40,372 nt of DNA, from NCBI GenBank assembly GCA_017435525.1, contig JAFSEW010000063.1, positions 1-40,372 on the forward strand, read 5' to 3'. The notes below the pieces were generated by a model. It had not been told where the DNA came from and did no database searches. It saw only the letters and a list, made by a program, of their open reading frames with translations. The position numbers and the translations under genes were made by a program. This DNA comes from Oscillospiraceae bacterium (lineage in GTDB: Bacteria > Bacillota > Clostridia > Oscillospirales > Oscillospiraceae). The number at the start of each line of letters is the position of its first letter. The stretch's first letter is position 1. Below, piece by piece: positions 13,603 to 40,372 of this stretch.

Positions 13603-14661
13603 TTATTGTGCGTTCTTCAGCTTTTCCGCCTGATCCGCAGTGGCCAGGGCATCGATAATCTCATCAATAGCGCCGTCCATCACCGCATCGATCTTATAGA
13701 GAGTCAGATTTACCCGGTGATCGGTGACACGGCCCTGGGGGAAATTATAGGTGCGGATGCGCTCATTGCGCATGCCCGTTCCCACCTGGCTGCGCCGCAG
13801 GCCGGTGTGCTCCGATTCGATCCGCTCCTGCTCCATCTCATAGAGCTTGGAAGCCAGCATCCGCATGCATTTTTCCCGGTTCTGCACCTGGCTGCGCTCT
13901 TCCTGGCAGGCCACCACAATGCCGCTGGGCTTATGGATCAGCCGCACGGCGGAAGATGTCTTATTCACATGCTGACCGCCTGCACCGGAGGCCCGGTACA
14001 CCTGCATTTCGATGTCCGCAGGATTAATCTGCACGGAAGCTTCTTCCATCTCCGGCAGCACCGCTACGGTGGCGGTGGAGGTGTGGACACGGCCGCCGGA
14101 TTCCGTTTCCGGTACCCGCTGCACCCGGTGGACGCCGGATTCATATTTCAGCCGGGAATAGGCGCCCCGACCGTCCACGATGAAGTCCGCTTCCTTCACG
14201 CCGCCCAGTTCCGTCTCATTGTAGTTCAGCAGCTCGATGCGCCAGCCCATTTTGGCGGCGTACATGGAATACATCCGGAACAGGCTATGGGCAAACAGGG
14301 CGCTTTCCTCGCCGCCCACGCCGCCGCGGATTTCCACGATGACGCTCTTTTCATCATTGGGGTCTTTGGGCAGCAGCAGGATCTGCAGCTCCTTAAACAG
14401 CTTTTCCTTTGCTTCCTTGGCTTCCTGGAAGGATTCCTGGCAGAACTCCTTCATATCCGGATCGCTCATCAGTTCCTGGGCATCCGCCATATCCTGACAG
14501 GCCCGGTTATACGCCCGGTAGGTTTCCACCACCGGCTCCATATCATTTTTCTCCCGGAGCAGCGCCGCAGCCTTCTTGGGATCGTTATAAAAATCCGGCT
14601 GCTCCATTTTAAAGCAAAGCTCCTCATAGCGGTTCTCCACCGCCCGCAGTTTATCCAGCAT
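13603..14661 (-). CDS. prfA: Peptide chain release factor 1
   Basis: The 352-residue protein is RF1. It has the GGQ motif (GAGGQHVNKTSSAVR), the stop-codon recognition tripeptide PET in RVPETESGGRVHTS (the PxT site of RF1, not the SPF of RF2), and the C-terminal VGTGMRNERIRTYNFPQGR block. It reads UAA and UAG and triggers peptide release. The ATG at 14661 is chosen because TAGGAG lies 7-8 nt upstream; a longer frame runs into the promoter region and is not used. It is the first gene of prfA-tsaE-tsaB-upp. Confidence 0.97.
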   Translation of the reverse strand: MLDKLRAVENRYEELCFKMEQPDFYNDPKKAAALLREKNDMEPVVETYRAYNRACQDMADAQELMSDPDMKEFCQESFQEAKEAKEKLFKELQILLLPKDPNDEKSVIVEIRGGVGGEESALFAHSLFRMYSMYAAKMGWRIELLNYNETELGGVKEADFIVDGRGAYSRLKYESGVHRVQRVPETESGGRVHTSTATVAVLPEMEEASVQINPADIEMQVYRASGAGGQHVNKTSSAVRLIHKPSGIVVACQEERSQVQNREKCMRMLASKLYEMEQERIESEHTGLRRSQVGTGMRNERIRTYNFPQGRVTDHRVNLTLYKIDAVMDGAIDEIIDALATADQAEKLKNAQ

Positions 14662-39497: not shown

Positions 39498-39959
39498 TCA
39501 GAATTTCGGCTTGATTGCCTTATGGTAGTGGGCATAGGTGCAGCTGGCATCTTTACCCAGAACCTTGCTCTCGGTAACTTCGCCAATAAACATCATGTGG
39601 CTTCCGAGATTGACCTTCTCCAGAACCTTGCAGGAGAACATAGCGTTGGTGCTGTCCGTCACATAGAGCAGACCGTTATGGCTGCGCTTGGTTGCGGAAA
39701 AAGCCTGGAACTTATCCACATCCCTGCCGGACTGCATGCCAAAATGCCGGATGGTTTCAAAAGGCACATTCTCTGTCAGAACACTGAGGTTGAACTGGCC
39801 GGTGGATTCGATGATCTCCCGGGTCAGATTCCCCATCTGCACGGAGATTGCCAGCTTGGTAGGATCGTTGCCAACCTGGAAGGCGGTGTTTACGGTGCAG
39901 CCGTTGTCGGTTTCTCCCCTGGCTGTGAGAATAAACAGACCGTAGCTGAGGTTAAACAG
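39498..39959 (-). CDS. Flavin reductase domain protein without a canonical start codon
   Basis: The frame encodes a flavin reductase domain like that of clostridial Hrb and NADH:FMN reductases: ALFNLSYGLFILTARGETDN, GCTVNTAFQVGNDP, then HFGMQSGRDVDKFQ and the ending TYAHYHKAIKPKF. It would reduce FMN or feed electrons to rubrerythrin. The conserved N-terminus lies upstream of the first available GTG (39842), and between the in-frame TGA at 40020-40022 and that GTG there is no ATG, GTG or TTG. I set the start at a CTG (39959) just before FNLSYG, as a placeholder. The open frame continues upstream to overlap the end of the rubrerythrin gene in the +1 frame, giving a linker-like [10 protein letters not shown]. 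Alternatives are a +1 frameshift fusion or a one-base sequence error. Confidence 0.75.
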   Translation of the reverse strand: MFNLSYGLFILTARGETDNGCTVNTAFQVGNDPTKLAISVQMGNLTREIIESTGQFNLSVLTENVPFETIRHFGMQSGRDVDKFQAFSATKRSHNGLLYVTDSTNAMFSCKVLEKVNLGSHMMFIGEVTESKVLGKDASCTYAHYHKAIKPKF

Positions 39960-39990
39960 CGCCTTGGGGTCTTGGGCAGGTTCTTCCTGC

Positions 39991-40372
39991 TTAGTGAAAG
40001 TAACGCTCCAGCAGGCCCTTCAGGGCAACGCCGTGGCGGGCTTCGTCCCGGGCCATTTCGTGGACGGTGTCGTGGATGGCATCCAGGCCGTTCTTCTTGG
40101 CGCAGGAGGCCAGATCAAACTTGCCCTGGGTTGCGCCGAACTCGCAGTCAACGCGCCATGCCAGATTGTCGCGGGTGGTGGCCTTCATGTTGGGCTCCAG
40201 ATCCTCACCCAGCAGCTCGGCGAACTTGGCAGCGTGCTCAGCCTCTTCCCAGGCTGCCTTCTCCCAGTACAGGCCGATCTCGGGATAGCCCTCACGATGG
40301 GCGATGCGAGCCATGCACAGGTACATGCCCACTTCGGAGCACTCGCCGTTGAAGTTGGCCATCAGCTGATCA
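39991..40372 (-). CDS. Rubrerythrin-type ferritin-like protein, C-terminal part (cut by window edge)
   Basis: The visible 127 residues hold ferritin-like helices with di-iron ligands: [20 protein letters not shown], then [20 protein letters not shown] (ExxH) and the final [20 protein letters not shown] (ExxRH). This pattern matches clostridial rubrerythrin or reverse rubrerythrin (NADH peroxidase), where the rubredoxin domain may be at the N-terminus; that part would be outside the window. An ATG lies at 40362, but in-frame codons (DQL) continue before it, so the true start is probably upstream. The protein ends without a C-terminal rubredoxin domain. Confidence 0.88.

Follow-up and report, generated by a model that had tools for sequence, protein, structure and literature searches.

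We describe a flavin reductase (FR) coding sequence in an Oscillospiraceae bacterium that lacks a start codon and occupies the +1 frame directly behind the stop codon of a rubrerythrin gene. From the conservation of this junction we consider it very probable that the two are connected by programmed +1 ribosomal frameshifting, in which tRNA-Phe would slip from UUU to UUC and a rubrerythrin-FR fusion would arise as a minority product; in this best explanation of the sequences, both reading frames are one gene.

Reading frames at the junction

The sequence analysed (the window, 40,372 nucleotides) is the whole of contig C57 of a draft genome comprising 2.06 Mb in 67 contigs, 77% complete and with 5% contamination. 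The rubrerythrin was recognised by the Pfam profile PF02915 (E 6.1e-13), and this is the only domain shown by the window copy because the contig end cuts off the 5' part of the gene. Complete relatives carry in addition an N-terminal rubredoxin, as in relative P0002 (RUBY_RBDX at 4-34, Rubrerythrin at 74-134), and so belong to the "reverse" type, a group named in an excerpt of PMC5114695 as having an N-terminal rubredoxin and a di-iron rubrerythrin domain. The FR domain matches PF01613 with an E-value of 2.5e-27 and 96.3 bits (Pfam gathering score 27), its closest solved relative by sequence being 1i0r. Its frame is open on the minus strand from a TGA at 40020-40022 down to the stop listed in Table 1, and the earliest ATG, GTG or TTG within it is a GTG at 39842. 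Read on that strand, the junction is CGT TAC TTT CAC TAA GCAGG AAGAA CCTGC, with the FR in the +1 frame relative to the rubrerythrin. The original prediction had described a start-less FR behind the rubrerythrin stop, and the two stop codons (TGA and TAA) and the overlap of the frames all proved to be as it placed them. Following the FR is a ferritin gene (PF00210; 38907-39416, minus strand); a simple motif found ferritin close downstream in 6 of the junction's 23 carriers, within downstream stretches of 617 to 1500 bases, indicating partial linkage.

Table 1. Coordinates of the features at the rubrerythrin-FR junction of the window.
Feature	Position	Strand	Remarks
Rubrerythrin, 3' part, zero frame, ending ...GLLERYFH stop	39991..40371	-	Pfam and relatives
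Proposed slip site TTT_C	39996..39999	-	Next zero-frame codon CAC in the window, CGC or CGT in the other 22
TAA ending rubrerythrin in the zero frame, one codon past the slip codon	39991..39993	-	
+1-frame linker T-K-Q-E-E-P-A between both domains	39975..39995	-	
Hairpin GCAGG-AAGAA-CCTGC directly behind the stop	39976..39990	-	-7.3 kcal/mol
FR domain (PF01613), without start codon and without C-terminal rubredoxin	39498..39974	-	Stop at 39498-39500

Distribution among genomes

Linked FRs were sought with one sequence against 60 relatives and with FR profiles in overlapping samples of 136 genomes of the genus, 400 of the family, 394 of the order and 391 of the class; the contig scan covered the best 80 of 584 related stretches, and more carriers are possible beyond the loci examined. 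Within this scope the start-less, rubrerythrin-linked FR occurs in at least 23 genomes: 20 of the 136 from the window's genus, one from another genus of the family (L158, genome G409), one from another family of the order (L200, G667), and an unplaced metagenome-assembled genome from roe deer gut (L086, JAFTKC010000021). Among the top loci of the profile search in the 136 genus genomes, carriers score at least 292 bits and the next match 214. None of the 29 class-sample loci examined beside the window's has the arrangement. Of the 136 genus genomes, 19 contain the 24-base junction pattern TTYCRYTRAGCAGGNNNNNCCTGC, each a single time, and none contains its reversed control; the junction thus exceeds chance expectation. 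All nine carriers known by name are metagenome-assembled genomes. A one-base error in the assembly, offered earlier as a possible origin of the frame relation, is excluded: other assemblies carry the same junction, and the comparison across assemblies that had been proposed returned the same start-less FR and frame relation in 23 genomes.

Loss of the start codon and constraint on the reductase

No start codon is common to all 23 carriers. The position that holds Met in most stand-alone FRs is CAA, CAG, GAA, GAG, GTC, GTT, ATA or ATC in linked FRs, and encodes Gln or Glu in 11 of the 19 genus sequences aligned over the linker (L068 is left out of this comparison, its linker being one codon shorter, with the +1 frame relation kept). 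Values of dN/dS for the FR lie between 0.06 and 0.16 in all nine equal-length pairs tried; by this measure the FR is under purifying selection. A Lys/Glu change in the linker and a TAA/TGA change of the zero-frame stop are one and the same substitution. Conservation of overlapping frames, the downstream one having no start of its own, is thus found in each of the 23 genomes.

An invariant TTT C and its controls

In all 23 carriers the rubrerythrin frame ends with TAC TTT and then a codon beginning with C (CGC in 19, CGT in three, and CAC in one, the window itself). A zero-frame stop follows this codon immediately in 22 (15 TAA, 7 TGA); in L086 it comes one codon later, as CGC AAA TAG. The +1 frame is closed just upstream, its last stop preceding the FR domain by 10 or 11 codons in L040, L200 and L086, so any shift is confined to about five codons around CGC TAC TTT CGC, and among these a P-site tRNA can re-pair one base on only at TTT C. 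Phe is encoded by TTC in 65% of cases in the same genes, yet at the junction by TTT in 23 of 23, and no other column with at least 15 Phe residues is entirely TTT: rubrerythrin Phe columns are mostly TTC, except for column 4, which is mainly TTT (17/19), and FR Phe columns are mixed. In-frame TTTC is absent elsewhere from the 23 rubrerythrin stretches (two of them partial) and present in 2 of the 23 FRs.

Controls were drawn from 30 genus genomes without this form of FR, hand-picked from 116, of which 29 gave a rubrerythrin match. These supplied 25 complete readable genes, two of them from genome G071, after removal of L194 (motif not found), L195 (wrong frame) and L196-L198 (truncated); seven rubrerythrins from other lineages brought the total to 32. 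TTT encodes the corresponding Phe in 7 of these 32, and the next codon begins with C in none (AAG 26, GGC 2, AAC 1, stop 3), against 22 of 22 for both features in the FR-linked set; one further carrier, L042, was too short for this set and for the tree but has TTT and C. For TTT the difference gives a Fisher p of 2.5e-9 with kinship ignored. Five independent contrasts on well-supported branches of the rubrerythrin tree associate C in the next codon with the FR in 5/5 and TTT in an average of 4.3/5; the corresponding sign tests on these five contrasts are not significant (p 0.06 for C and 0.125 for TTT). With CGC making up 36% of all Arg codons across the rubrerythrin and FR genes, and CAC in its place in the window, no hungry A site is apparent. 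No conserved Shine-Dalgarno-like element was found upstream of the slip site, where CTG GAG is replaced by CTG AAC, CTG ACC and TTA AAG in L040, L200 and L086, respectively.

The hairpin behind the stop codon

The hairpin directly behind the stop of the window copy (z -2.6) is kept in 20 of the 23 carriers; L068 and L086 have nothing resembling it, and L158 has a weak fold of another kind (-3.9, z 0). In the 19 genus rows of the linker comparison, silent sites of the GCAGG/CCTGC stem are invariant. For CAG (19/19) this should be read against its 94% share of Gln codons; CCT is likewise found in 19/19 although it accounts for 12% of the Pro codons of the genes compared, and the third base of AAG or GAG is G in 19/19 rows. 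Third positions vary in the loop and just downstream (0.7-1.7 bits), the GCN codon behind the stem in four ways. An invariant stem with variable flanks is what dual coding combined with an RNA hairpin would predict, the rows here being related ones. If the first U of UUU is numbered +1, pairing begins at +10. Stem-loops lying 11-12 bases on at frameshift sites have been shown to hinder binding of the A-site tRNA (PMC7282821), and the hairpin described here may act in that way.

Two loci of another family (L020 and L202, family f17) bear on this element. Their rubrerythrin ends in TTC TGA. The FR behind it is separate, starting at an ATG or GTG and carrying a rubredoxin, but these loci have in common with the frameshift group a KQAKPA linker and a GCAGGC...GCCTGC hairpin; the hairpin is therefore not specific to frameshifting. 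As a required signal it was rejected, being absent from three of 23 carriers and present in these two non-frameshift relatives. The arrangement in L020 and L202 may represent either the ancestor of the frameshifting form or an escape from it.

A reductase without its own electron carrier

All 23 linked FRs end at 156-159 residues, without a rubredoxin, whereas among the loci retrieved there are 151 other distinct FRs, of which 150 have a rubredoxin motif following the FR domain and the remaining one, L243, has a rubredoxin on inspection by eye. A single chain is a sensible arrangement for an FR devoid of its own electron carrier when the rubrerythrin in front of it bears an N-terminal rubredoxin, and electrons would presumably pass from NAD(P)H through FMN and rubredoxin to the di-iron site and H2O2. 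In-frame proteins combining FR, rubredoxin and rubrerythrin do exist in other Clostridia (L164/L119, from Pseudoflavonifractor sp. MSJ-37, L218 and L230), as ORFs of about 395-402 amino acids. They unite the same domains in one chain and differ in that FR is N-terminal in all three, a further rubredoxin is included and no frameshift is needed; rubredoxin stands between FR and rubrerythrin in L164 and L218, and behind rubrerythrin in L230. The search for one-frame fusions suggested by the original prediction succeeded in other Clostridia, with the domains in the other order; its proposal that the junction would unite an electron-supplying domain with its di-iron partner agrees with the loss of the FR's own rubredoxin and with these fusions.

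Proposed mechanism and alternative explanations

We propose that most ribosomes would terminate the rubrerythrin at TAA, while in some the tRNA reading UUU in the P site would re-pair with UUC and translation would continue in the +1 frame into the FR, possibly aided by the hairpin through slowing of the A site. The predicted products are plain reverse rubrerythrin and, in a minority, a rubredoxin-rubrerythrin-FR fusion of about 350-360 residues, and the ratio between them would be set by the slip; the electron path outlined above would then run within one chain or a mixed oligomer. Slippage at TTT CAC TAA, one of the readings entertained at the outset, is strongly favoured, on comparison of genomes, by the invariant TTT C in 23 of 23, the lost start and the constraint on both frames.

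Other accounts of the same junction are conceivable. The FR could be translated separately, by reinitiation after the TAA at a non-standard codon (the CTG at 39959, or codons resembling ATA, ATC or GTT), perhaps helped by the stretch GCAGGAGG. It does lie close behind the rubrerythrin stop, L037 and L041 have an AGGAGG resembling a Shine-Dalgarno sequence eight bases before the old Met position, and the homologous FR of L020 and L202, which shares the linker, possesses an ATG or GTG start. The carriers, however, offer no common candidate start: apart from the Gln and Glu codons noted above, CTG, which the original prediction had listed as one possible start and which is indeed present in the window, is found there in only 8 of the 19 genus rows, and AGGC replaces AGGA in four of the 19. 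Reinitiation moreover explains neither the TTT C of all 23 genomes nor the conservation of linker peptide ahead of such a start, and we regard it as quite improbable. As in prfB, slippage by +1 or -2 might instead occur while the stop occupies the A site, on the final sense codon (CGC_UAA) and not on UUU_C. The stop stands directly behind that codon in 22 of 23 carriers, and in prfB it is during a pause at a stop codon that slippage occurs (PMC12421855); by our reasoning, though, tRNA-Arg or tRNA-His on CGC, CGU or CAC would not pair with GCU, GUU or ACU, L086 has CGC AAA TAG, and the invariant TTT would be left without a reason. This version is accordingly hard to credit.

An assembly error or decaying pseudogene might be suspected from a draft genome as fragmented and incomplete (67 contigs, 77%) as that of the window, and has next to no probability given the same junction in 23 genomes, the low dN/dS of the FR (0.06-0.16) and the frame relation kept by the shorter linker of L068. 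A further possibility accepts the +1 shift but assigns the hairpin another role, such as mRNA stability or limiting entry into the next gene, and treats TTT C as a passenger of a recombining block, unselected as a slip site. In keeping with it, the similarity between rubrerythrins that have the FR and those that lack it ends at about the TTT (8/8 pairs), and the hairpin occurs without frameshifting in L020 and L202; against it, TTT and the following C are invariant while third positions just downstream of the stem vary. We hold this to be unlikely, and programmed slippage at UUU_C remains the preferred explanation.

Evolution of the linked reductase

In a quick tree with 35 other FRs, all 23 linked FRs form one clade (SH-aLRT 98), so the 23 carriers are not independent. 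Their partner rubrerythrins are scattered, with 13 changes counted on the best tree, of which supported branches force five or more, and those of L086 and L200 group with a distant rubrerythrin clade. Within the genus the FR is distributed patchily behind rubrerythrin 3' ends, with a sharp similarity boundary at TTT, as if a block had been swapped in or out: in the same eight of eight pairs, a gene with FR and one without agree at 70-100% in each 30-base step leading up to the TTT codon, and at 30-57% over the 30 bases that begin with it. Repeated loss and repeated acquisition by 3'-end recombination both fit this pattern, acquisition being favoured because the partner rubrerythrins are distant. 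One may picture a portable cassette, a single FR lineage equipped with its own slip signal (TTTCGC, a stop and mostly a hairpin) which recombination within the conserved 3' ends of rubrerythrin genes has repeatedly put behind different resident copies, those of other families included, each time converting a peroxidase reliant on external reductases into a set-ratio mix of plain and self-reducing enzyme; on this scenario our judgement is evenly divided.

Relation to known systems

Conserved +1 frameshifting is rare in bacterial housekeeping genes, prfB (RF2) being the standard case. The present junction resembles it as a bacterial chromosomal gene with proposed +1 P-site slippage and a stop codon nearby. 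In prfB the signal combines a Shine-Dalgarno-like AGGGGG with CUU and an A-site UGA C (PMC12421855), whereas here the slip sequence is UUU_C, a sense codon occupies the A site, TAA (15) outnumbers TGA (7) and no conserved Shine-Dalgarno element lies 3 nt upstream. The PRFect paper (PMC10885494) cites UUU as one of the codons next in order of slipperiness at the prfB site. The window genome's own prfB (L256, G000:C52:37641-38693) is encoded in a single frame that dispenses with the usual +1 frameshift, so its ribosomes furnish no prfB precedent. A second release-factor-like gene, L257 (window 13645-14652, minus strand), scores 318.8 of 370 bits, below the prfB cut-off, and is probably RF1.

Another parallel is offered by UUU_CGN sites. 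UUU_CGU is the +1 site of influenza PA-X, proven by mass spectrometry, with efficiencies near 1%; the same source mentions related sites in other eukaryotic viruses, states that cellular use "remains to be seen", and proposes a rare A-site codon as stimulator of PA-X, which its authors leave uncertain (PMC3498833). Excerpts of later papers extend the class to plant amalgaviruses (PMC5052127) and propose it, in 2017, for vertebrate ASXL1 (PMC5644247). Shared with the present junction are the UUU_C at which the P-site tRNA would slip, CGN in the A site (22/23), the absence of an upstream Shine-Dalgarno-like element and a start-less downstream frame. The differences are that known or proposed cases comprise eukaryotic viruses and one vertebrate gene, as against a bacterial chromosomal gene; that a stop one codon on and then a hairpin follow here; that the window copy reads UUU_CAC, keeping UUU_C but departing from CGN; and that the A-site codon is not rare (CGC).

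Two further systems share single features. In dnaX, shifting yields a shorter product. That gene likewise gives rise to two enzyme subunits (tau and gamma), by a -1 shift (PMC3711429, in excerpt), unlike the +1 shift and longer product predicted here. Flavodiiron proteins fused to rubredoxin and reductase domains, such as class F of C. difficile (PMC6033852, in part), also join a di-iron oxidoreductase to its own electron supply, with another di-iron fold and in frame. Among open-licence full texts we found no report of a rubrerythrin-FR frameshift or of UUU_CGN in a bacterial gene, which is weak evidence of absence, and no paper containing both "rubrerythrin" and "ribosomal frameshifting"; the word rubrerythrin does not occur in the main text of the PRFect paper or of the GeneTack survey (PMC3711429), or in the portion covered of a recoding review (PMC5009743).

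Programmed +1 shifting as such is already known, and the junction adds a bacterial candidate with 23 natural variants; if true, this would be the first bacterial gene to use a UUU_CGN +1 frameshift. Gene finding that relies on start codons would then miss or truncate such domains. The carriers are a group of uncultured gut bacteria, and rubrerythrin is an oxygen-defence enzyme; if the proposal is correct, it would reveal how such a bacterium fixes the amount of a peroxidase relative to that enzyme's own reductase.
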